A stretch of DNA of 64,000 nt. Source: Pectobacterium polaris. GTDB taxonomy: Bacteria > Pseudomonadota > Gammaproteobacteria > Enterobacterales > Enterobacteriaceae. The stretch is from contig NZ_CP017481.1 in assembly GCF_002307355.1 (NCBI RefSeq), forward strand, positions 2,976,001-3,040,000, written 5' to 3'. The position numbers and the translations under genes are program-made. The notes under the pieces were generated by a model that did no database searches, was not told where the DNA came from, and was given only the letters and a program-made list of their open reading frames with translations. Shown piece after piece: positions 10,794-35,333 of this stretch (its first letter is position 1; the number at the start of each line of letters is the position of its first letter).

Positions 10794-12521
10794 GTGAGTC
10801 AACTAGCAAATAAGGAACGTTCGTTGTTGAGTATACTGCGTCCTTTCCGGCGCAGCTTTTGGAGCATTGGGATTTTCAGCGCCATCGTTAATCTACTGAT
10901 GCTGTCGCCTTCGATTTATATGCTTCAGGTTTACGATCGCGTACTGGCTTCGGGGAATGGCACCACGTTGCTGATGCTTACTCTGCTGATTGCCGGTCTG
11001 GGGATATTCATGGCGGCACTCGAATGGGTGCGAAGTCTGGTGGTCGTAAGGCTCGGCACCCGTATCGATCTGCAACTGAATCAGCAGGTCTTCAACGCCG
11101 CATTTGAGCGCAATCTGGAAGCGGGAGAGGCCAAAGCGGGTCAGGCGCTGAACGATCTCACGCTATTGCGGCAGTTTATTACAGGCAACTCACTGTTTGC
11201 CTTCTTCGATATTCCCTGGTTTCCCTTCTTTTTATTAGTGCTGTTCCTGATCCATCCGGTTCTCGGCCTGTTGGCGCTGGGAGGAACGGTGGTGCTGGTG
11301 CTGCTGGCATGGCTGAATCAGTATCTCACCACGTCGCCTTTGGAAGAGGCAAACCATGAAGCGTTACAGGCGACCCATCTTGCGGATACGCAACTGCGTA
11401 ATGCCGAAGTCATTGAATCGATGGGGATGCTGCCTAATTTGCGCCGTCGTTGGCTGGGGCAACACTACCGTTTTATTACGCTGCAAAATCTGGCGAGCGA
11501 ACGGGCCGCGGTTGTCGGGGCTGCATCAAAACATGCGCGTATTTTTCTGCAATCGCTGATGCTCGGTGTGGGGGCCATGCTAGCGATTAAGGGCGAAATC
11601 ACACCGGGGATGATGATTGCGGGATCAATTCTTGTCGGGCGCGTGTTGAGCCCTATCGATCAATTGATCGGTATTTGGAAGCCGCTGAGCAGCGCGCGGC
11701 AGGCCTGGTATCGACTCAGCCGTATCATGACGGCTTATCCGCCCAAAGCGGAAGCGATGGCGCTGCCTGCGCCGGTTGGTCAGCTCAGCGTCGAGAATGT
11801 GTTATTGCAGACGCCGCAAGGGGCATCAAGATTGCAGGATATCCATTTCTCGCTTCAGGCAGGCGAAACGTTGGCGATTCTGGGCGCATCGGGTTCAGGT
11901 AAATCGACGCTGGCACGTCTGCTGGTTGCGACGCAAACCCCGACGCGTGGCAAGGTTCGACTGGATGGGGCCGATCTCAGTCAGGTAGATAAAACGGCGT
12001 TTGGCCCGGCAATGGGCTATCTGCCACAGGATGTGCAGCTCTTTAAGGGCACGCTGGCGGAGAATATTTCCCGCTTTGGCGAGCATGACGCGGAAAAAAT
12101 TATCGCAGCGGCGAAGCTGGCTGGCGTCCACGAAATGATTCTTAGCCAACCGCAGGGATATGACACGCCGCTTGGTGCTGACGGCAACGGGCTGTCGGGC
12201 GGGCAACGGCAACGTATCGCTCTGGCGCGTGCGGTGTATGGCGACCCCTGCCTGCTGGTACTCGATGAGCCAAACTCCAGCCTCGATAACGAAGGCGAAA
12301 TGGCGCTGGCGCAGGCGATTTCGCATCTTCAGAAGCGGGGAGCGACGGTGATACTGATTACGCATCGTCCCGCCTTAACCACGCTGGCGCATAAAATTCT
12401 GGTGCTCAATCAGGGTAAGCAACAGCGCTTTGGGCCAGCGCGCGACATTCTGAACGAATTGCAGCCGCGTCGTGCCGCCAATCAAGCACAAATGACACCT
12501 GCCGCCGCTGTCCAGCCGTAA
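10794..12521 (+). CDS. prtD: Type I secretion ABC transporter for protease
   Basis: 575 aa, inner-membrane ABC exporter. The N-terminal half has about six membrane spans (first at about 27-47). The nucleotide-binding domain has Walker [10 protein letters not shown] (about 363-371), signature [14 protein letters not shown] (about 467) and Walker [10 protein letters not shown]. It starts with GTG at 10794, preceded by AGGAGAGG. It energises export of PrtW through the PrtE/PrtF channel, recognising the C-terminal signal. The gene is tightly linked to inh and prtE. Confidence 0.94.
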
Positions 12522-15817: not shown

Positions 15818-16429
15818 ATGCGACACCTTCTCATCACGCTGCTTGTTAGCCCGATGCTTTTTAGCGCGACGGTCTGCGCCGACACGATCCCTCGTGCCGC
15901 GCAGGCGTACCGCAGTGATGTGATCCGCAGCGCACGGCTGGATTGGGGCATGAATGCCCCGATTGCTGACTTTGCGGCGCAGTTGCATCAGGAAAGCGGC
16001 TGGAATCCTCGGGCCGTTTCACCCGTCGGTGCACAGGGGCTGGCGCAGTTTATGCCGACCACCGCCGACTGGTTTAGCGGTATCGTTCCTGAACTTCGCG
16101 CTAATCAACCGTTTAATCCTGCCTGGGCTATCCGTGCTCTGACAGGCTACGATCGCTGGCTGTGGACGCGAATCAGCGCCAGCAACGACTGCGAACGTAT
16201 GGCAATGACCTTGTCGTCCTACAATGGCGGGCTTGGCTGGTTACAGCGTGATAAGCAACGCGCGAAGATCGCCGAGAAGGACATACTCCGCTGGTTTGGT
16301 CATGTGGAAACCGTCAATGCCGGACGCAGTGCCGCCAACTGGCGTGAAAATCGCCATTATCCCGACCGCATTTTGCATCAGCTGGCGCCACGGTATTTGA
16401 GCTGGGGGAGGGCGAGCTGTGTGGAATAG
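15818..16429 (+). CDS. Lytic transglycosylase (lysis enzyme)
   Basis: 203 aa. A signal peptide (about 1-20, MRHLLITLLVSPMLFSATVCA) precedes an SLT-type goose-lysozyme-like domain: QLHQESGWNPRAVSPVGAQG holds the catalytic Glu in the ES motif, then GLAQFMPTTADWF, and LSSYNGGLGW (AYNxG-like). It cleaves peptidoglycan so particles can leave the cell. The Sec signal means it may not need the holin for export but be activated by it (inference). Its ATG directly follows the holin stop. Confidence 0.87.
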   Translation: MRHLLITLLVSPMLFSATVCADTIPRAAQAYRSDVIRSARLDWGMNAPIADFAAQLHQESGWNPRAVSPVGAQGLAQFMPTTADWFSGIVPELRANQPFNPAWAIRALTGYDRWLWTRISASNDCERMAMTLSSYNGGLGWLQRDKQRAKIAEKDILRWFGHVETVNAGRSAANWRENRHYPDRILHQLAPRYLSWGRASCVE

Positions 16430-18446: not shown

Positions 18447-18640
18447 AATACCGCTACACCGGCCCCGCCAGCGGCGTCACGCTGGCAGATGGTCAGGAAA
18501 TTCTGCTTTGGCCCGCTCAGGTGACTGAACTGCCGGCAGATCATGAGTACGTAAAAACGCTGATCGCGCTGGGCTATTTGCTGCCTGTCGCGGATCAGAT
18601 TCTGGCTGATAGCGCAACGGAGGTGACCCTTGGCCGCTAA
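18443..18640 (+). CDS. DUF2635 / Mu gp38-like protein
   Basis: 65 aa, starting MKYRYTGPASGVTLADGQEI. The ATGA overlap with the gp37-like gene and the position directly before the sheath gene match the small DUF2635/gp38 proteins of Mu-like phages. Function is unknown. A GGAGGTG within its end serves as the ribosome site for the sheath gene. Confidence 0.68.
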   Translation: MKYRYTGPASGVTLADGQEILLWPAQVTELPADHEYVKTLIALGYLLPVADQILADSATEVTLGR

Positions 18641-20057
18641 TTATTTACATGGTGTAGAAACAATTGAAGTTGAAACCGGTGCTCGTCCGGTGAAAACCGT
18701 CAAATCGGCGGTGATTGGGCTGATTGGTACGGCGCCGCAGGGTGCGGTAAATGACATTACGCTGTGCTTGTCCGAAAAAGACGCAGCACAGTTTGGTAGC
18801 CAGTTCGGCGGCTATACCATCCCGCAGGCGTTGGATGCAATTTACGATCATGGTGCAGGTACGGTTCTGGTCATTAACGTGCTGGATTCGGCGAAACACA
18901 AATCGTCTGTGAGCGCAGAAAAAGTCACCTTTGACAAAGCGACCAGTACGGCTCAACTAGCGAACCGCGTGGTTGCCAAGCTGGTGCTGACGGCGGCAGA
19001 AGGCGGTCAGCCGTTTGTCGAAGGTCAGGACTATACGCTGGATGCACAAACCGGCGTATTGAAAAATCTGGGTAAAAACATCGATGTTACTGCTGTGGTC
19101 AGCGCGTCTTACGACTTTGCCGATGTCACGAAAGTGACTGCCGCCGACATCATCGGCAGCATCAACGCCGCGGGCAAACGCACCGGTATGAAGCTGCTGA
19201 ACGATACCTACAACCTGTACGGCTTCTTTGCCAAGATTCTGATTTCGCCGGTGTTCTGTACGCAAAATAGCGTAACGACCGAGCTGATCTCGCTGGCCGA
19301 TAAACTGGGCGCGATTGCCTATATCGATGCGCCAATCGGTACCACCTTTGCGCAGGCTCTGAGTGGCCGTGGCCCAGAAGGCACGATCAACTTCAACACC
19401 AGCTCTGAACGCGCTCGTCTGTGCTATCCGCACGTAAAAGTGTACGACGCGGAAACCAACAGCGAACGTCTGGAGCCGCTGTCGGCGCGTGCCGCGGGTC
19501 TGCGTGCCAAAGTCGATCTGGAGAAAGGTTTCTGGTGGTCATCATCCAATCAGGAAATCAAAGGGATCACCGGCGTAGAGCGCCAGCTGTCCGCGATGAT
19601 TGACGATCCGCAGAGCGAAGTGAACCTGCTGAACGAGCAGGGCATCAGCACCATTTTCAACAGCTACGGCTCCGGCCTGCGCCTGTGGGGCAATCGCACC
19701 GCTGCCTGGCCAACCGTGACGCACATGAAGAACTTTGAAAACGTGCGTCGTACTGGCGATGTGATTAACGAATCCATCCGCTATTTCAGCCAGCAGTACA
19801 TCGATATGCCGATCAATCAGGCGCTGATCGACGCGCTGGTGGAATCCGTCAACGCCTACGGTCGCAAGCTGATCGGTGATGGCGCGCTGCTGGGCTTCAA
19901 ATGCTGGTTCGATGCCGCGCGTAACGAGCAAACCGAGCTGGCGGCAGGGCACCTGTTGCTTAACTACAAATTTACTCCGCCGCCGCCGCTTGAGCGTCTG
20001 ACCTTTGAGACGGAGATCACCTCGGAATACCTGGTAACGCTGGAGGGCACTAACTGA
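18630..20057 (+). CDS. Contractile tail sheath protein
   Basis: 475 aa, Mu gpL-type sheath subunit. It starts at TTG 18630 with GGAGGTG 5-11 bases before it; the protein begins MAANYLHGVETIEVETGARP. Typical features are VKSAVIGLIGTAPQG near the N-terminus and the C-terminal sheath-joining region (FSQQYIDMPINQALIDALVESVNAYGRKLIGDGALLG). The sheath contracts to drive the tube through the target envelope. It is translationally coupled to the tube gene by a TGATG overlap. Confidence 0.93.
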   Translation: MAANYLHGVETIEVETGARPVKTVKSAVIGLIGTAPQGAVNDITLCLSEKDAAQFGSQFGGYTIPQALDAIYDHGAGTVLVINVLDSAKHKSSVSAEKVTFDKATSTAQLANRVVAKLVLTAAEGGQPFVEGQDYTLDAQTGVLKNLGKNIDVTAVVSASYDFADVTKVTAADIIGSINAAGKRTGMKLLNDTYNLYGFFAKILISPVFCTQNSVTTELISLADKLGAIAYIDAPIGTTFAQALSGRGPEGTINFNTSSERARLCYPHVKVYDAETNSERLEPLSARAAGLRAKVDLEKGFWWSSSNQEIKGITGVERQLSAMIDDPQSEVNLLNEQGISTIFNSYGSGLRLWGNRTAAWPTVTHMKNFENVRRTGDVINESIRYFSQQYIDMPINQALIDALVESVNAYGRKLIGDGALLGFKCWFDAARNEQTELAAGHLLLNYKFTPPPPLERLTFETEITSEYLVTLEGTN

Positions 20058-20581
20058 TGGCCGGGAAAATTGAAGTAAACCGTATTACCAACGCCAACAT
20101 CTACATCAATGGTGCCAACCTGCTGGGGCGTGCGCAGGAAATCAAACTGCCGGATGTCTCCATGATCATGCAGGAGCACAAAGCGCTGGGTATGGTCGGC
20201 AAGATCGAACTGCCTGCGGGCTTCGACAAGCTGGAAGGTGAGATCAAGTGGAACTCCTTCTACCGCGAAGCGATGCTGGCGGCAGCGAACCCTTACCAGT
20301 CGCTGGCGTTGCAGTGTCGCTCCAGCGTGGAACGCTACGGCTCTCAAGGCCGTATCGAAGAAGTGCCGCTGGTGACGCACATGACCATCATGTTCAAAAA
20401 GAATCCGCTGGGCACGTTCAAACAGCATGAAAACCCGGATTTTAGCAGCGCGTTCAGCTGCACCTACATCAAGCAGGTGATGAACGGTGAAGACCTGCTG
20501 GAGCTGGACTACCTGTCCAACATCTTCATGGTGGGCGGCGTGGATCAACTGAACAGCTACCGCGCCAATATCGGCGGCTAA
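20057..20581 (+). CDS. Tail tube protein
   Basis: 174 aa, Mu gpM / P2 FII-like inner-tube subunit, overlapping the sheath stop by one base. The sequence MAGKIEVNRITNANIYINGA and the beta-rich ELPAGFDKLEGEIKW segment fit the conserved tube fold. It forms the rigid channel that penetrates the target cell. It is the most invariant gene of the tail module. Confidence 0.92.
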   Translation: MAGKIEVNRITNANIYINGANLLGRAQEIKLPDVSMIMQEHKALGMVGKIELPAGFDKLEGEIKWNSFYREAMLAAANPYQSLALQCRSSVERYGSQGRIEEVPLVTHMTIMFKKNPLGTFKQHENPDFSSAFSCTYIKQVMNGEDLLELDYLSNIFMVGGVDQLNSYRANIGG

Positions 20582-20593
20582 TTTATCTTCCAA

Positions 20594-20618
20594 GCCCGCC
20601 AGTGGGGCGGGCGTTTCT
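20594..20618 (+). terminator. Hairpin after the tube gene
   Basis: GCCCGCC (20594-20600) pairs with GGCGGGC (20606-20612) across AGTGG, followed by GTTTCT. The T-tract is weak, so it may act as an attenuator. With the stronger terminator at 20979 it isolates the ferredoxin-like gene. Confidence 0.65.
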
Positions 20619-20637
20619 ATCAATCAATGAGGTTATT

Positions 20638-20934
20638 ATGGCTATCTATTCTATTATCGATTTTGAAAAGCAGTTTCAATTTCCGTGCAGTGACGATGAA
20701 TACATTTTAGATGCGGGAGAAAAGGCGGGTATAAATCTGCCGTATAGTAGCCGTTCTGGTGCAGATTCATCATCTGCGGCTCGTTTACTCTCTGGTAAGG
20801 TGGATCAGCGTGATGGTTCATTTTTGAATGCGAAGCAGAAAGCTGCTGGATTTTTTTTGACTGATACCTCTTATCCATTGAGTGACTGTGTCGTTCAATT
20901 TTTTGTTGAAGCAGAGTTGGCTGATTACGAATAG
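20638..20934 (+). CDS. Cysteine-less plant-type ferredoxin-like protein
   Basis: 98 aa from ATG 20638, preceded by GAGG at 20629-20632; the frame extends to a GTG at 20602 but that lies in the hairpin. It aligns end to end with plant-type [2Fe-2S] ferredoxin: EYILDAGEKAGINLPYS, SGKVDQRDGSFL, GFFLTDTSYPLSDC and the acidic end VEAELADYE. The four cluster ligands are all replaced: Ser38, Asp43, Ser46 in the loop YSSRSGADSSSA and Asp76 in LTD. Two unrelated Cys (17, 84) remain. It therefore should not bind a cluster in the usual way. Base composition is more AT-rich than the sheath and tube genes. It is bounded by two hairpins, like a phage 'moron' cargo gene. Function is unknown; a link to ferredoxin receptors such as FusA is inference. 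Confidence 0.85.
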   Translation: MAIYSIIDFEKQFQFPCSDDEYILDAGEKAGINLPYSSRSGADSSSAARLLSGKVDQRDGSFLNAKQKAAGFFLTDTSYPLSDCVVQFFVEAELADYE

Positions 20935-20978
20935 TCATAATTAACTTCATGACCATTTGATATTCATTATCAATCTTT

Positions 20979-21000
20979 AAGGGGCTTCGGCCCCTTTCTT
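20979..21000 (+). terminator. Terminator after the ferredoxin-like gene
   Basis: Stem AAGGGGC / GCCCCTT with a UUCG-type tetraloop (TTCG), then TTCTT. A textbook rho-independent terminator placed inside the tail operon. Confidence 0.88.
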
Positions 21001-21090
21001 ATGCCTGCCATTTTCGTTTTCTAATTCACTTTAAAATCGTTATTCCTCGCTGCACGCGATACTGCTCCCGACATTTACTAAGGAGCCGTT

Positions 21091-21411
21091 ATGCACACTG
21101 AAACCTATTCTCTGCAATTCCCTTACACCACCTCTGCCGGTCAACGCGTGGAGTCCATTTCGCTCAAGCGTCTGAAAGTCAAAGACATCAAAGCGGTGAA
21201 AAAAATCAGCGATGACCCAAGCAACTGGGACGACGCGCTGCTGTCGCGCATGACCGGTCTGGTGCCGGAAGACATCGATGAGATGGACGCGCAGGACTAC
21301 ATGGCGCTGCAAAAACGATTTCAGCAGCTACTTGGGTTGGATAACGCAGCCGGCGCTGCTGTGGAAAGCGCAGGCTCTGCTGGCGAGGTGGTTTCGCTTC
21401 CAGCCGAGTGA
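21091..21411 (+). CDS. Tail assembly chaperone, upstream frame
   Basis: 106 aa, starting MHTETYSLQFPYTTSAGQ, with KRLKVKDIKAVKKI in the first half. It resembles the Mu gp41/P2 E class of tail assembly chaperones, which bind the tape measure while the tube polymerises. AAGGAGC precedes the ATG. A second frame overlaps its end, as expected for the frameshift-extended chaperone pair conserved in tailed phages. Confidence 0.78.
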   Translation: MHTETYSLQFPYTTSAGQRVESISLKRLKVKDIKAVKKISDDPSNWDDALLSRMTGLVPEDIDEMDAQDYMALQKRFQQLLGLDNAAGAAVESAGSAGEVVSLPAE

Positions 21412-25328: not shown

Positions 25329-26476
25329 CGGAAGAACTAACCTTACTCTCTCCTGCGGTGTCGGAAGTACTGCAACCGACGTTCACCCTGTGGTATCTGC
25401 AAAAGGATATCACCAATGATATCGCACCGTATGTTACCAGCGTGACGTATACCGACAGCATCAAGAACGAGTCGGATTCGATCGAGGTTAGGCTCGATGA
25501 TACCGATGGCCGCTGGATGGATAAGTGGTATCCCGGTACGGGCGATACGCTATCGCTCAAGCTGGGCTATCTCGGTGAAATGCTGTTTGACTGCGGCACT
25601 TTCTCGATTGATGAAATTGAGATTAGCGCACCGCCGAGTGAAGTAGTGATTCGTGGCGTCGCGACATCGGTCAATCGTGCGTTGCGAACCAAATCAAACT
25701 GCGGTTTTGAAGATACGACGTTAGCTGCCATTGCGACGCGCATCGCGAAAAAGCATCAGTTGATGCTCGTAGGGATGATTCAGATCATCAAGATCGATCG
25801 CGTTACGCAATATGCGGAAACCGATGTCGCTTTTCTAAAGCGGCTCGCCAGTGAATATGGTTATGCCGTGAAAGTGGTTAGCGACCAGCTGATTTTTTCC
25901 CATCTGGCAACGCTGCGTAATCAGGCGTCTGTTCGACAAATTAAGCCAACGGACGTCGCGCGTTTTTCACTGAGCGACACGATCAGCCACGTCTATAAAA
26001 ACGCCAAGACGAAATATCAGAAAGGGAGTGAAAAGAAACTGATGGTTTGTGAAGCCGACGGTGGCGTGAACAATGAAATGAAGTCTGCCGGTGCTGGGAC
26101 CAGTGCGGATACATTGAAAGTTAATGTGCGCGCAGCGGATGCTTCTGAAGCGAGGATGAAAACGGATGCTGCATTGGATGCGCACAACGAAAAGCAACAA
26201 AAGGGGTCGATGACATTGATGGGCAGCCCGCAGTTGGCGGCGGGGAATAAAGTTGAGCTGGTGTCGTTCGGCCAACTTTCTGGCCATTGGTTGATCGAAT
26301 CGGCTCGCCATGTTCTGGAACGTGGCAGTGGTTACACCACGGAGATTGGGTTGATTCGTGGGCCGATTACGGCGGGCAAGCGAAAGTCGGAGAGCGGAAA
26401 AACGGTGGTGACTTACCACCCGAATGGCAGCTCAACAACGCAGAAGGCCAAGAGTAAAAAGGGGGCGGTATCATGA
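25316..26476 (+). CDS. Baseplate hub protein, GpD-like
   Basis: 386 aa, P2 GpD/late-control-type hub related to T4 gp27. Features are VTSVTYTDSIKNESDSIEVR near the N-terminus, the central YAETDVAFLKRLASEYGYAV motif shared by gpD and VgrG hubs, and VELVSFGQLSGHWLIESARH near the C-terminus. It forms the hub on which the spike and tube assemble. It overlaps the GpX gene by 13 bases and the spike gene by 4. Confidence 0.9.
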   Translation: MAALTEELTLLSPAVSEVLQPTFTLWYLQKDITNDIAPYVTSVTYTDSIKNESDSIEVRLDDTDGRWMDKWYPGTGDTLSLKLGYLGEMLFDCGTFSIDEIEISAPPSEVVIRGVATSVNRALRTKSNCGFEDTTLAAIATRIAKKHQLMLVGMIQIIKIDRVTQYAETDVAFLKRLASEYGYAVKVVSDQLIFSHLATLRNQASVRQIKPTDVARFSLSDTISHVYKNAKTKYQKGSEKKLMVCEADGGVNNEMKSAGAGTSADTLKVNVRAADASEARMKTDAALDAHNEKQQKGSMTLMGSPQLAAGNKVELVSFGQLSGHWLIESARHVLERGSGYTTEIGLIRGPITAGKRKSESGKTVVTYHPNGSSTTQKAKSKKGAVS

Positions 26477-27054
26477 GTTTATCTCGTCGAATTGGCACGA
26501 TAAGCGCGGTGGATGAGGCTCGCGTGATGGTACGTGTTCGTCTACCCGAGTGTGACAATTTGCGTACGGCCTGGCTGCCGGTATTACAGCGCAATACGCA
26601 GAATAATAAGGATTATTGGTTGCCGGATATTGGCGAACAGGTCGAAGTTCTGCTGGACGGCAACGGCGAGGATGGCCTGGTGTTGGGGGCAATTTACTCC
26701 GCCGCTGATGTGCCAACGCTGGCAGATAAGGACAAAAGGGCGGTAACGTTCGCTGACGGCGCGCATATTGAATACGATCGCCGGACGCATACGTTAACGA
26801 TCAACGGCGGCGTGCAGCATATTGCGATTAGCTGCGGGGCTGACGTGATGGTTAACGCCCAGCGAGTCACTATTAATGCGCCAGAAACGACGGTGACTGG
26901 CAAGCTACTGGTGCAAGGGCAACTCACTTACGAGAGCGGGATGTCCGGTTCCGGTGGTGCCAGCCTCAGCGGTGATGTCAGTATCTCCGGCAACGTCAGC
27001 GCCAGCGGCAGCGTCATGGATGCTGGCGGCAACTCCAACCACCACTCGCACTAA
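26473..27054 (+). CDS. Baseplate spike, GpV-like
   Basis: 193 aa. An OB-fold N-terminal part (IGTISAVDEARVMVRVRLPECD ... DIGEQVEVLLDG) is followed by a repetitive Gly/Ser-rich beta-helix end (SGMSGSGGASLSGDVSISGN). It terminates in a short His-rich segment, NSNHHSH, which in P2 GpV coordinates an iron at the spike tip. It punctures the target outer membrane. Confidence 0.9.
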   Translation: MSLSRRIGTISAVDEARVMVRVRLPECDNLRTAWLPVLQRNTQNNKDYWLPDIGEQVEVLLDGNGEDGLVLGAIYSAADVPTLADKDKRAVTFADGAHIEYDRRTHTLTINGGVQHIAISCGADVMVNAQRVTINAPETTVTGKLLVQGQLTYESGMSGSGGASLSGDVSISGNVSASGSVMDAGGNSNHHSH

Positions 27055-27112
27055 CGTTTTTCTAAACCGCTTTACAATTCTTTCCTCTCACCGGGGGCGA
27101 CAATAGCCCCCT

Positions 27113-27460
27113 ATGAAAACTCAATCTGTTTTTTGGCAACCGGCGCTGCAACGTTCTGGCGACATCGTCGAAGGAACGGCAGATATCATGCAGGCGATTC
27201 ACATCATCCTGCGGACACCCTGCGGCAGCGACCCACATCGGCCTGACTTTGGTAGCAATCTACATCTGTATCTCGATTATCCGATCGAACGTGCGATCCC
27301 GCATGTCGTTAGGGAATCGGTAGAAGCGATCAAACGATGGGAACCTCGCTGCCAGTTACTGGCGGTTAAACCTTCTGTGAATGGGGCTCACCTGACGCTG
27401 CACGTTAGCTGGAAAACCGCTAATGGCGCGACACAGACCACGGAGTTGTTATGGCGCTGA
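27113..27460 (+). CDS. Baseplate wedge, GpW-like (gp25 family)
   Basis: 115 aa, starting MKTQSVFWQPALQRSGDIVEG. The gp25-type motif HIILRTPCGSDPHRPDFGSNLHLYLDYP contains the conserved lysozyme-like wedge signature. The C-terminus overlaps GpJ by 10 bases. A GGGGGC/GCCCCC inverted repeat lies just upstream (27091-27109). Confidence 0.9.
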   Translation: MKTQSVFWQPALQRSGDIVEGTADIMQAIHIILRTPCGSDPHRPDFGSNLHLYLDYPIERAIPHVVRESVEAIKRWEPRCQLLAVKPSVNGAHLTLHVSWKTANGATQTTELLWR

Positions 27461-28554
27461 CAGAACCCAATTTTATTGAACGCGATGCGGCGAAGATTAC
27501 CGCCGAAATGATCGCGAAATATGAAGCTGATTCGGGGAAAACACTCTATCCGGCGCAGGCCGAACGCCTGCTGATTAACCTCTTTGCTTACCGGGAAACT
27601 TTATTGCGTAGTGCGGTCCAGGAAACCGCCAAGCAAAACCTGGTTGCGTTTGCTCGTGCACCGATGCTGGATTATCTGGCGGAACTGGTTGGCGTCTACC
27701 GTTTGGCGGCGCAGCCGGCGCGTGCGGAACTTCGCTTTACCCCTGAAACGCCGTTAGTCAGCGATCTGCTGATTCCTGCGGGCACTCGCGTTAGTGCGTC
27801 GGACAGCGTGATTTTCACCACCGACAGCGACGCGCTGCTGAGAGCGAACGGCAGCGGTGTCACCGTGCTGGCGACCTGTACCGAAAGTGGCAATGTGGGC
27901 AATGACTGGCTGCCTGCCCAAATCAGTACGCTGCTGGATGAGATTGGCGACAGTGATTTAAGCGTCGTCAATATCACCAAGAGCAGCGGCGGTTCCGCCG
28001 AGGAAGATGACGATCGCCTGCGTGAACGTGTTCAACTGGCTCCGGAATCGTTCAGTACGGCGGGATCGAAACTGGCATATCGCTTTCATGCGATGCGGGC
28101 ACACCAAAACATTGTCGATGTGGCGGTGATGTCGCCCGAACCGGGCGAAGTGGTGTTGTATCCGTTGCTCAGTACTGGCCTGCCGGACAGTAGCATGCTT
28201 TCGCTGGTGGAAAGTTTTTGCTCTGACGAACAGGTGCGTCCACTGACGGATTTTGTTTCCGCCAAATCCCCCACGCAGGTGGATTACGCCATCAGCGCCA
28301 AATTGACGCTGTTTAACGGCGAACAGGCTGGCGTCGTTCAGGCCGCTGCGGAGAAAGCGGTGCAGGCCTGGGTTGAAACCCGTACCGCCACGCTAGGGCG
28401 TGACATTGTACCAAGCCAGATTATCGCCACGTTATCCATTCCCGGCGTGTATCAGGTGGAGCTCGTTTCGCCGTCATTGATGGTGCTTGATGACAGTGAA
28501 TGGGCGAACTGTACGGGCATCAATGTCAGCGTCGTCGGGGTGTCGAATGGCTGA
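27451..28554 (+). CDS. Baseplate wedge, GpJ-like
   Basis: 367 aa, P2 GpJ / T4 gp6-type wedge protein, starting MALTEPNFIERDAAKITAEM. Conserved stretches include LLINLFAYRETLLRSAVQE, AELRFTPETPLVSDLLIPAGTRV and DDRLRERVQLAPESFSTAGS. It forms the ring that transmits the fibre signal to sheath contraction. Confidence 0.92.
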   Translation: MALTEPNFIERDAAKITAEMIAKYEADSGKTLYPAQAERLLINLFAYRETLLRSAVQETAKQNLVAFARAPMLDYLAELVGVYRLAAQPARAELRFTPETPLVSDLLIPAGTRVSASDSVIFTTDSDALLRANGSGVTVLATCTESGNVGNDWLPAQISTLLDEIGDSDLSVVNITKSSGGSAEEDDDRLRERVQLAPESFSTAGSKLAYRFHAMRAHQNIVDVAVMSPEPGEVVLYPLLSTGLPDSSMLSLVESFCSDEQVRPLTDFVSAKSPTQVDYAISAKLTLFNGEQAGVVQAAAEKAVQAWVETRTATLGRDIVPSQIIATLSIPGVYQVELVSPSLMVLDDSEWANCTGINVSVVGVSNG

Positions 28555-32014: not shown

Positions 32015-33633
32015 TAAACAACCTCCCATAATTCCCATGTAGAAACAGAACCTGACTGTAAGTTTTGTCCATAAGTAAAAACATCAATGAATATTGTTGA
32101 GTTTCCATAAAACCGAGTCATTGACCGGAGTTCTGCGCTTGCCCCCAACTGCAGTTGTTAGGGTTACTCGTTACCACTTGGTTTCCTTTTGACGAAAGTA
32201 CTACAGCATATTTTTTTAAATCATGTATCCATGATGTCGTTGCTACACCTGTATCAATTGTTCCAACAAAGGACTTTGTTTGTGAATTGACAAGAGGATA
32301 GTTAACTGAACCACTTGCCACTTTGTTCCATCCAGATGCAATGTTAATATCTGCTGTACCATCGAAAAGCACATCATTTATTTTCCTCGCTGTTGCGAGT
32401 TTAGTTGCAGCGATTGCAATACCGCCAGCAGGCAATGCCCCAACGTCTTCAGCGGTAGGTTTATTTTGAGTATTATATTCCTCAACCCATACTGACCATG
32501 AAGGGGATGACGCATAATAGAAACGACGAAATAACTTATTGCTATTATACGGCCGATATTCCTGAGTAACGCCATTATTCCCATTCGCTGAATTTAAATG
32601 GATAAATAAAGATCCTGCAAAAGCTATCGGGTAGTTATGCTCTGGTGTTGCATAAGCATCATATACATTACAGTAAGATCCAGGTGTAAATACATTGTTT
32701 AAATCCTGAGATAATCCGCCGTGGAATGCAATTGCACCAATTTCATCTGCCGTCGGTTTATCCTGGTCGCTATAAATACGTGCCCACGGTTTTTCAAAAC
32801 CATAATTATCACGGGAACTTCGGTACTTCAATCCACCATTCGCATAATCAAAGTAAAATTGTGCAGATGATGCCGACCTGTATTTAATCCCATATGCCAA
32901 ACAAGAGACGTATATCCTTCGTTCTCTTTTAAATAGGCACCAGTAGGACTGTTCCATGCAAGATCATCATTTTTATAAACGACACCTGATGAACCCTGAT
33001 GTATATAATGGCTATCTGCCTCTGACTTCACTATAGCCCCAACATCAGCTGCAGTGGGTTTAAACCTGTATGGTAAAATTCGACTGGTGTACCGTACTCA
33101 GCTATTCCATTCCCCCGCACATACATATTTCTCCCAAATAACCTGTATGCGCCATTGACATTGTCTGTAGCGGCTTGCATTAGGCTGAGTGAACCACCAT
33201 CCTTTAAATAAGACTGCAAAACAACGCCGTATGGACTCGACCAGTTGCCATAATCTCCGTTATAAAAACCGATTCCAGCTTTAAATGGATTGGCCTGTGC
33301 TGAAACTTCACCATTTATGATTCGACATGAGTCATTAAACACTTCTATAGGTTGATGCCATTCACCGTCTTTAAAAATTTTATAGAACTGTCTGTATTGC
33401 CCATTTTCTGGATTATAAAACCCGATGATTGTTAGAACACCGTACAAAATACCGATGTTGTTTATAAATTTTTGCCAATTTAAAAATGCATCTGAAATCG
33501 GAATTTTTATAACAGCAGGATCTCCGCCGACAATGTAATTACCGTCAGGTGTATGAGCGTTAAAGTATTCTTCTGTATTAACGATTCCAAGTGGTGTACT
33601 GCTAAGGCCAAACTCACCCAAACCGAGGTTTGC
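32014..33633 (-). pseudogene. Alternative tail fibre C-terminal module (module B), silent, three frameshifts
   Basis: Promoterless in this orientation. The minus strand encodes EVLANLGLGEFGLSSTPLG onward, in frame with the crossover site. The register breaks near 33062 (expected GFKPTAADVGAI), near 32875 (expected GSASSAQFYFDYA) and near 32155 (expected LQLGASAELRS), each restored by one added base. The true end is ...STWELWEVV with TAA at 32014-32016, not the earlier stop at 32118. The central part (HQGSSGVVYKNDDLAWNSPTG) is homologous to module A; the C-terminus is different. Confidence 0.8.
33620..33633 (-). promoter_or_regulatory. Right inversion crossover site
   Basis: The same 14-mer as at 30003-30016, on the minus strand. 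The first ten bases to its left on the + strand also keep GA-rich positions of a 26-bp dix/gix-like site. Confidence 0.8.
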
Positions 33634-33681
33634 GAGAACCTCACAATAAAAATACAATCAACCATTTCATGGGGTTATGGA

Positions 33682-34255
33682 ATGCTGATTGGCTATGCGC
33701 GCGTGTCTACTACCGATCAAAATACGGAATTACAGAAAAAAGCGCTGATTCGAGCAGAATGTGAGCTGATTTTTGAGGATACCGCTAGCGGGAAGAATGC
33801 TCAACGACCTGGGTTAAAAAAGGCAATTAGGCGATTACGGCGTGGTGATACGCTGATGGTATGGAAGCTAGACAGGCTAGGGCGTAGCGTGCGTGATTTG
33901 ATTGATCTGGTATCCGCATTGCAGGCGAAAGGCATTCATTTTCGCAGCCTGACAGATAGTATTGATACTTCTACCCCGCGGGTCGTTTTTTCTTTCATGT
34001 GATGAGCGCACTGGCAGAGATGGAACGGGAACTGATTGTCGAACGGACGCGGGCTGGCCTCGATGCTGCTCGGTGCAGGGTCGCATCGGCGGGCGAAAAC
34101 GGCTTATGACGCAAAATGTGCTTTGCCGTGTCGAAGCGATGTTAGCGACAGGAGCGACGCGCCTGCAGGTGGCGAATGTCGTCGGCGTGTCAGAAAAAAC
34201 CATCTATAAATACTTTCCTGCGCGGAGTAAGGATGGCGTTCCTGACGCTGGCTAA
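33682..34255 (+). pseudogene. Serine DNA invertase (Gin/Hin/Pin type), two frameshifts
   Basis: Starts MLIGYARVSTTDQNTELQKK with catalytic Ser in RVST. The family sequence continues in three registers: frame 1 to DSIDTSTP, frame 3 for GRFFFHVMSALAEMEREL and VERTRAGLDAAR, and frame 2 for GRIGGRKRLMTQNV and a C-terminal helix-turn-helix (RLQVANVVGVSEKTIYKYFP). The breaks are near 33980 (GGG where GGGG would restore the frame) and near 34072 (CGG before TGCAGG). With two bases restored it is 191 aa, the usual length. As read, recombinase activity would be lost. See the findings for the error hypothesis. Confidence 0.88.
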
Positions 34256-34364: not shown

Positions 34365-35333
34365 ATGGATTACACCAAAATTATCAAAGAAGTGGGGCGC
34401 GGGAAAAATCATGCGCGTGATGTCGATCAGGCAACGGCTTATGAACTGTATAGCGCGATGCTGCGCGGTGACGTGCCGGAGCTGGAGCTCGGTGGGCTGC
34501 TGATTGCGTTTCGCATCAAAGGCGAATCCGAAGCCGAGATGCTGGGTTTTTATCAGGCGATGAACGAGCATGTGTTGCGCCTGACCTCGCCTGCGGGCTT
34601 TCCTATGCCCATCGTGGTACCCAGCTATAACGGGGCGCGTAAGCAGGCAAACCTGACGCCGCTGTTGGCGCTGCTGTTGGCAAAACTGGGTTTCCCTGTC
34701 GTGGTTCACGGCGTCAGCGACGATCCGACCCGTGTCACCAGCGCCGAAATTTTGCGTAATCTCGGCGTGACGATTGCGGAGAATGCCGAGCAGGCTCAGC
34801 AGGAGCTTGATAACGGCAGTCCGGTATTTATCCCTGTGTCGACGTTATGTCCGGCCATCGATCGCCAGCTACAGCTGCGCTGGCGGATGGGGGTGCGTAA
34901 CAGTAGCCACACGCTGGCTAAGGTGGCGACGCCGTTTGGTGAAAGCGACGCGCTGCGCGTCGCCAGCGTTTCCCATCCTGAATATGTTTCCCGCGTGGGG
35001 ACGTTTTTTAATGACATCAACGGGCGCGCACTGCTGATGCACGGCACGGAAGGGGAGGTGTACGCTAACCCACAGCGCTGCCCGGAAATTCATTTTATCC
35101 ATCAGCAAAATACCAAAATTCTACAGCTTCGGCAGGATATCAGCGTCGCACCCGATGCGTTGCCGATTGCGAAGGATGCCGCAACGACGGCGCGCTGGAC
35201 GGTACAGTGTCTGACGGGTGAAATTGCTATACCGCAGGCGATTCGTCTGCAACTGGCGTGCTGTCTGGTTGCCACCGGCGAAGCGGCGACAATGGAACAG
35301 GCTGTCGCCACGATTAAGAAACGCCTCGGCTGA
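34365..35333 (+). CDS. ybiB: YbiB, TrpD2-family DNA-binding protein
   Basis: 322 aa, TrpD2 family (anthranilate phosphoribosyltransferase fold) that in E. coli binds nucleic acid and lies right after dinG. Start ATG 34365 with GAGGCC upstream. Features: DYTKIIKEVGRGKNHARDVD, PSYNGARKQANLTPLLALLL, VHGVSDDPTRVTSAEILRNLG. Its position here shows that the protease operon and the bacteriocin cluster are both inserted in the dinG-ybiB interval. Confidence 0.93.
   Translation: MDYTKIIKEVGRGKNHARDVDQATAYELYSAMLRGDVPELELGGLLIAFRIKGESEAEMLGFYQAMNEHVLRLTSPAGFPMPIVVPSYNGARKQANLTPLLALLLAKLGFPVVVHGVSDDPTRVTSAEILRNLGVTIAENAEQAQQELDNGSPVFIPVSTLCPAIDRQLQLRWRMGVRNSSHTLAKVATPFGESDALRVASVSHPEYVSRVGTFFNDINGRALLMHGTEGEVYANPQRCPEIHFIHQQNTKILQLRQDISVAPDALPIAKDAATTARWTVQCLTGEIAIPQAIRLQLACCLVATGEAATMEQAVATIKKRLG

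Follow-up and report, generated by a model that had tools for sequence, protein, structure and literature searches.

In the carotovoricin cluster of Pectobacterium polaris, a gene between those for the tail tube and the tail assembly chaperone encodes a plant-type ferredoxin-like protein of 98 aa in which all four ligands of the [2Fe-2S] cluster have been replaced. This gene, called fer of the carotovoricin cluster here, was identified as an open reading frame with profile matches at 20638..20934 on the + strand of the window, by which we mean the whole 64,000-nucleotide stretch of DNA that was analysed. It belongs to a conserved cluster-less protein family and is not a broken gene. As judged from sequence, its product may be an iron-free ligand of the Fus ferredoxin-uptake pathway that is released at lysis and acts as a decoy or competitor, a function that we propose tentatively and hold to be somewhat short of an even chance.

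The fer protein matched the Pfam model Fer2 (E 5e-6, above the cut-off) and, over residues 12-94, the NCBIfam model of plant-type [2Fe-2S] ferredoxins, fdx_plant (TIGR02008; E 2.4e-25), with 88.1 bits against a curated cut-off of 81.15. Among solved structures, the ferredoxin domain of pectocin M1 was the best match (E 5e-24), followed by plant and cyanobacterial ferredoxins. These matches span the greater part or nearly the whole of the protein, and the likeness to ferredoxin is not due to chance. In the alignment, the ligand positions are occupied by Ser38, Asp43, Ser46 and Asp76, while two cysteines that are not ligands, C17 and C84, are kept. An earlier note on this DNA had described a whole-length alignment with plant-type ferredoxin in which these four ligands were changed, and the profile and structure matches agree with it. 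Because the cysteines of the plant-type pattern CX4CX2CX~29C are missing, fer is not classed as a ferredoxin, and the absence of all four ligands means that it is not an electron carrier of the plant-type ferredoxin kind. The plant mitochondrial complex I protein C1-FDX is like fer in having a ferredoxin fold, which C1-FDX keeps for a structural role; this respiratory complex subunit loses only part of its ligand set. When AlphaFold2 was run on fer with 21 family sequences, the mean pLDDT was 81 and the pTM 0.71, the five models spanning 81 to 41. The predicted order of strands and helices fits ferredoxin, so that the fold unlike ferredoxin by which the note would have been overturned was not what the prediction gave.

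The absence of ligands was next followed through the relatives of fer. A search of 5.8 billion proteins gave 24 matches. All four cysteines were absent from the closest 21 (P0001-P0021), which are 95-106 aa long and come from Pectobacterium wherever an organism was named; the three remote matches (P0022-P0024) retain all four. Together with 12 species-genome copies and 13 IMG/VR loci, these 21 protein clusters made up overlapping sets of 46 sequences, 39 of them distinct and 34 non-redundant (distinct sequences minus those contained in a longer one), and the ligand cysteines were missing in 46/46. Position C1 was Ser in 23, Gly in 15, Asp in 7 and Ala in 1, and position C2 was Asp in 38, Gly in 4, Ser in 3 and Glu in 1. 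In contrast, other plant-type ferredoxin loci in the Pectobacterium genomes had all four cysteines in 20/22 cases, the two exceptions being one fragment and one damaged copy; for this count a script used the first two cysteines to locate the domain, and 22/22 loci were found. At the DNA level, fer had a dN/dS of ~0.09 among the 12 fer-bearing genomes (60 usable pairs out of 66, with 5 saturated and 1 more dropped as too close), and the protein is therefore under purifying selection. The median dS over the 66 pairs was 0.99 for fer, compared with 0.26 for the tube gene and 0.13 for the chaperone gene. The much higher dS of fer means that its alleles either far exceed its neighbours in age or have been exchanged without them. 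Two or three fer alleles per species, 54-86% identical, were present among the protein clusters in four named species, and such deep allelic diversity beside near-identical neighbours looks like an antagonistic locus.

These data bear on two simple explanations. A decaying, functionless ferredoxin gene would account for the loss of every ligand, and the copy in genome G017 is indeed broken by a stop, ~1.5 kb from the tube gene. However, a family in which the ligands are absent throughout while the remainder of the protein is conserved at such a low dN/dS does not behave in this way, and we rejected decay as barely conceivable. Alternatively, fer could be a true iron-sulphur or metal protein with Ser and Asp ligands. 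The third and fourth ligand positions would suit this, since C3 (Ser46) was Ser in 46/46 and C4 (Asp76) was Asp in 45/46, with one Glu, but C1 and C2 vary and include Gly and Ala, which are unable to coordinate, making such a protein highly improbable. With Gly or Ala at C1 in 16/46 sequences and Gly at C2 in 4, any canonical or substituted cluster in the fer family appears very unlikely. The earlier suggestion that selection has acted on shape and not on electron transfer is thus strengthened by the family-wide ligand loss and the dN/dS, and related clusters that mostly keep the cysteines, which would have spoken against it, were not what we found.

The surroundings of fer were annotated by a domain scan of ten window proteins. 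The contractile tail sheath gene (18630..20057) and the tail tube gene (Phage_tube FII, E 4e-54; 20057..20581) precede fer, and the tail assembly chaperone gene (Phage_TAC_7, E 7e-21; 21091..21411) follows it. The same tail cluster contains baseplate spike (Phage_base_V) and Baseplate_J genes (26473..28554) and, downstream of the tail fibre genes, a gene with a resolvase/invertase N-terminal domain (33553..34002). A lytic transglycosylase gene with an SLT domain, upstream in the cluster (15818..16429), likely belongs to a lysis cassette that would serve as the route of release. All of these genes are on the + strand, and no head genes were seen by eye among the open reading frames of the window. 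An ABC transporter gene lies upstream of the cluster (10794-12521), and a gene downstream of it (34365-35333) encodes a glycosyl-transferase-family-3-like protein, which we take to be YbiB. Carotovoricin is described as adjoining T1SS genes (PMC6963963) and ending at ybiB (PMC13195805), in the accessible text of these papers. The window tail cluster is carotovoricin.

Comparison across the genus showed that fer comes and goes as a unit. The tube gene was found in 21/25 Pectobacterium species genomes, at 97-100% identity. In the 20 genomes with a readable tube-to-chaperone interval, fer was present in 12 (intervals of 480-512 bases) and there was none in 8 (145-162 bases). The 21st tube-bearing genome is G017, in which the disrupted fer is also displaced. 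Among carotovoricin-type IMG/VR loci, fer occupied the same slot in 12/12. It is thus an accessory, separable gene inside a tail-only cluster, as tailocin cargo should be, with head genes judged by eye, and it does not have the presence in all clusters of a carotovoricin core component, being missing from 8/20 intervals. The cargo-like placement proposed in the note therefore stands, with clean presence and absence between tube and chaperone. A related tail cluster, with a tube 83% identical, was observed in G007, G017 and G004 (L052, L054, L055), and in G007 and G017 its post-tube slot holds a different small open reading frame of ~66 aa.

The composition and signals of the cassette were also examined. 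The GC content was 41% in the 300-base window from 20700 and 49-57% in the adjoining windows, in keeping with the AT shift noted earlier, and the hairpins said to bound the gene are both there. The upstream hairpin has 7 G-C pairs and was found by a terminator scan in the gap between the tube gene and fer (20594..20612, +). Its segment was seen, in altered form, in each of the 12 intervals that have fer and in none of the 8 that do not, and because it goes with fer in this way the hairpin looks like part of the fer cassette. The downstream hairpin, GGGGC-TTCG-GCCCC (20981..20994, +), lies 3' of fer; it was read from the sequence, is not in the terminator scan list, and is common to fer-bearing and fer-less carotovoricin clusters. 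The scan also gave 2 sites within the fer coding sequence, making 3 found against 0.9 expected. At the fer hairpins, Rfam gave two sub-threshold matches only, which we took as chance. At 20527-20620, across the end of the tube gene and the hairpin, a Trp_leader match below threshold (26.8 of 41 bits) probably reflects no more than the hairpin. A Shine-Dalgarno GAGG, read from the sequence, stands 5 bases 5' of the fer ATG (20629..20632, +). No sigma-70-like site was found in 20400-21200, where 1.4 are expected by chance, and fer is therefore probably transcribed by read-through from upstream. PADLOC gave no match for P0001 (fer family) or P0027, i.e. no known defence protein.

Several possible sources of the gene were searched. 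A phage origin of the ferredoxin was rejected, as the 277 matching phage records included no enterobacterial phage by record name; by name they were Synechococcus (255), Cyanophage (15), Prochlorococcus (6) and Marine (1), and 275/277 were below 60% identity. A plasmid origin was likewise dropped, with 4 remote records only. A pattern scan of the genome contigs for fer gave 4 loci only, the patterns probably being too strict.

The closest kinship of fer is with the ferredoxin domains of pectocins. An Asp8 and exactly 16 residues from Asp8 to Ile23 were present in 21/21 fer, 2/2 Enterobacter-type (described below) and 11/11 pectocin-type domains. In other plant-type ferredoxins Asp8 was found in 0/21, and the same stretch measured 18-20 residues in 19 of them; it was 15 long in the remaining 2, both cyanobacterial-type rows. 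A tree was built with the ligand columns removed, from few columns (100) for its 55 rows; the rows were realigned with MAFFT and checked by eye, with a few cyanobacterial-type rows trimmed N-terminally by a few residues. In this tree fer formed one clade (support 100/99), and a moderately supported branch (83/75) set fer, the Enterobacter type and the pectocin-type domains (11 rows) together on one side. Placing fer and the Enterobacter type in a single clade was not rejected (p 0.135), so that one and two losses of the cluster are indistinguishable. Descent of fer from the ferredoxin lineage used for the receptor-binding part of pectocins is thus moderately supported, and the link that the note had drawn with pectocin ferredoxin domains is matched by Asp8, the 16-residue stretch and the tree.

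Pectocins M1, M2 and P come from the same genus as fer and are competition proteins, of which M1 enters via FusA; the M1 ferredoxin domain is the closest solved relative of fer, and Asp8 and the 16-residue first hairpin are common to all. However, pectocin domains keep the four cysteines and are fused to a toxin, whereas fer is free-standing and cluster-less: the protein ends after the ferredoxin domain, without the C-terminal toxin domain of pectocins. Pectocins M1 and M2 are reported to carry the [2Fe-2S] cluster, and the proposed origin of M1 is a plant-like ferredoxin gene that was duplicated and then recombined with a bacteriocin (PMC3302902, accessible text). Other ferredoxins of these genomes were recorded alongside. 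Five Pectobacterium genomes encode a 111-112 aa pectocin-lineage ferredoxin with cysteines (L166, L170, L171, L172, L174), which has a conserved C-terminal tail and no toxin domain. In G024 and G003 a pectocin M1-like gene lies ~4 kb away from the toxin-less pectocin-lineage ferredoxin, an arrangement that agrees with the description in PMC3302902 of a plant-like ferredoxin gene near pectocin M1. A free-standing four-cysteine plant-type ferredoxin (L016/L181, L017, L018, L167, L169, L173, L182) was seen in six Pectobacterium genomes and one other genus, which also has Fus; in L181 and L182 the next gene encodes 231-237 aa and has a Tat-like start, and the first part of this gene was also seen in L017 and L018.

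A relative of fer was found in a tail cluster of another genus. IMG/VR contig L077 encodes a 111-aa protein that is 49% identical to fer over the core and in which the ligand cysteines are absent. It bears the name ferredoxin in Enterobacter sp. BIGb0383, whose genome (G445) encodes the same protein. A second Enterobacter-type member, P0028, is 73% identical to it and also without ligand cysteines. The AlphaFold2 model of the Enterobacter-type protein had a pLDDT of 82 (81 for fer) and the same order of main elements as that of fer. Its gene lies between those for antiterminator Q and holin, with lysis, sheath, tube, tape measure, baseplate and fibre genes downstream, and no head gene was seen by eye in this tail cluster. 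A position of this kind, with an antiterminator on one side and lysis genes on the other, would suit cargo set free by lysis. Proteins of the fer type are placed in two unrelated tail clusters, and the second of these is new; its genome has a Fus importer, with a TonB-type FusB-like gene, FusA and FusC side by side. The interpretation offered in the note gains from this second tail cluster in a Fus-bearing host. With P0028 as query, no more relatives of the Enterobacter form were found in IMG/VR, and the genome set includes one genome of the host genus.

The distribution of the Fus system was then compared with that of fer. The genome of the window has FusC (PDB 6b03, E 0) and a FusA-type receptor (PDB 4zgv, E 1e-220) that is ~43% identical to the usual Pectobacterium type. 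A divergent FusA with an STN signalling domain was observed in the fus locus of this genome and of 7 other species. In the window's genome this locus (L111, 2059.0-2074.5 kb) has sigma-70 and FecR genes upstream of the divergent FusA, and a ferredoxin-pesticin (pectocin P-like) gene upstream of these. Within Pectobacterium, FusC was intact in 12/12 fer-bearing genomes and 10/13 others, which is not significant (Fisher p 0.22). Two receptor haplotypes exist in the genus, and linkage of fer to receptor type was set aside, as it was not significant (p 0.36). Outside Pectobacterium, FusC matches (E up to 1e-100) occurred in 20/387 family genomes, in two of which FusC is partial or broken. Strong plant-type ferredoxin matches were found outside Pectobacterium in 3 genomes only, all among these 20 (hypergeometric 1.2e-4, with the match cut of ~1e-18 set after the list was seen and the next match at 2.6e-13). 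These three ferredoxins are the cluster-less protein of G445, a pectocin-like one with cysteines in G514 and a free one with cysteines in G728. An association of the fer lineage with Fus hosts is moderately supported. In G021, a single-contig Pectobacterium genome (L134, L153, L191), the fus operon is split, with several frame breaks in FusA and FusC; its carotovoricin is without fer. P. betavasculorum is reported to be without fus and is not named, in the accessible part of the 2019 survey (PMC6963963), among the taxa without the ferredoxin gene; it would be a counter-example to the fer-Fus link if the survey table confirms this.

If fer simply imitated ferredoxin at its receptor, the contact residues might be kept. 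At the 13 positions of pectocin M1 shifted in NMR by FusA (taken from PMC5095587, accessible text), fer matched the plant consensus in 5/13, against a background of 50/91 columns (p 0.94). At the FusB contact residues (PMC13253070, accessible text) the figure was 6/8 against the same 50/91 (p 0.21), a ninth contact being omitted as its residue number was ambiguous. The FusA and FusB contacts are thus not preferentially kept, which counts against simple FusA mimicry. Of the 21 fer proteins, 9 have the central Phe64, while 10 have Tyr and 2 have Ile in its place, and Asp66 was kept in 10/21; in spinach ferredoxin, F64Y and D66N are reported to weaken FusB binding (PMC13253070). Nine fer positions (I6, I7, E10, S46, R49, A69, D76, F88 and F89) were at least 90% fixed and unlike the plant, cyanobacterial and pectocin consensus, and of these the Enterobacter type has only I6, S46, A69 and D76. 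The residues I7, F88 and F89, fixed only in the Pectobacterium family, suggest a face rebuilt for another partner, and with E10 and R49 they may form a partner face of fer's own.

Our preferred reading combines these observations as follows. A protein from a ferredoxin lineage already put to use in Pectobacterium for receptor binding by pectocins would have lost its [2Fe-2S] cluster permanently and would travel as cargo of tailocin gene clusters. Since no signal peptide is evident in its sequence, the only way out for fer would be together with the tailocin when the cell lyses. Once released, it would act as an iron-free ligand on the Fus pathway of neighbouring relatives, and by occupying that pathway it could shield kin from ferredoxin-domain bacteriocins or deny rivals the iron of ferredoxin. 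Carrying no iron, it would nourish nobody; with no cluster, such a ligand could block and yet not feed, and its synthesis would use up no iron. Spinach ferredoxin is reported to block killing by pectocin M1, and pectocins to let insensitive strains grow better when iron is limiting (PMC3302902); together these two effects give a reason for dropping the iron. Against this reading, only one of the three Fus-linked proteins outside Pectobacterium is cluster-less, and the other two have all their cysteines. In its general form, that tailocin clusters of at least two genera release at lysis an iron-free ferredoxin mimic which antagonises Fus protein import, a decoy made from a bacteriocin receptor-binding lineage minus its toxin and cofactor, the proposal is a possibility that we put at roughly one in three. 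If this is true, fer would be the first case, to our knowledge, in which a bacteriocin domain, detached and stripped of its cofactor, serves as a soluble public good or weapon.

Three other roles would also be compatible with a conserved cluster-less protein. Fer might be a poison substrate, imported via FusA and then jamming FusB or the protease FusC in the recipient periplasm. The FusB contacts Glu93 (19/21) and Gln69 (20/21) are kept and FusC is intact in all of the fer-bearing Pectobacterium genomes, but Phe64 and Asp66 are kept inconsistently and the FusB contacts are not conserved above background, and we consider this reading improbable. A role as an optional part of the carotovoricin particle, such as a display or adaptor protein on tube or baseplate that extends targeting, is suggested by the position between the tube and chaperone genes and by the hydrophobic, family-fixed I7, F88 and F89. 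However, the fer-less clusters have tubes 97-99% identical, no residue at the 8 variable columns of the tube or the 19 of the chaperone tells genomes with fer from those without it, and the ranges of identity at the tape measure start overlap between the two groups; co-adaptation with tube or chaperone was accordingly rejected. The Enterobacter relative, moreover, has none of the three hydrophobic residues, and its gene belongs to the lysis region of another, unrelated tail cluster. A strain with the gene fer deleted made bacteriocin as the wild type did, although other bacteriocins may mask an effect (PMC6813493, accessible text). The tail part that the note had offered as one option is thus less likely, and we judge it an improbable role as well. 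Finally, fer could act inside the producer before lysis on a partner other than Fus, for example a tailocin regulator or a host protein. Both the want of an evident signal peptide and the family-specific hydrophobic residues would suit this, but it leaves unexplained the kinship with receptor-binding domains and the Fus association outside Pectobacterium; it is unlikely, though to be taken seriously.

The gene itself has appeared in the literature, contrary to the note, which knew of no such protein. The accessible text of PMC6963963 lists a carotovoricin cluster gene as 'ferredoxin (2Fe-2S)', missing in four taxa, and that of PMC6813493 reports that its deletion in Pcb1692 had no visible effect on bacteriocin production, other bacteriocins being a possible mask. 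By description and position, this gene is very probably fer in other species. In the accessible text of both papers it is treated as an ordinary ferredoxin, with neither cysteine loss nor function mentioned. A 2026 pangenome study (PMC13195805, accessible text) names first among the presence/absence genes of carotovoricin a 'nitric oxide deoxygenase' gene, in 88/365 clusters; this is probably fer under another automatic name. In the literature searched, mostly without subscription papers, we found no mention of cysteine loss in the carotovoricin ferredoxin.

Public annotation presents these proteins as [2Fe-2S] ferredoxins, a label that their sequence rules out. Should fer act on Fus, it would also offer a naturally occurring ligand without a cluster, with which to probe the ferredoxin face bound by FusA and to see whether the cluster region matters; the 2026 FusB paper (PMC13253070), in its accessible text, leaves this for validation. 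Tailocin producers would then release a second, non-killing agent, and that agent would shape both the piracy of iron and the sensitivity to bacteriocins in soft-rot bacteria.
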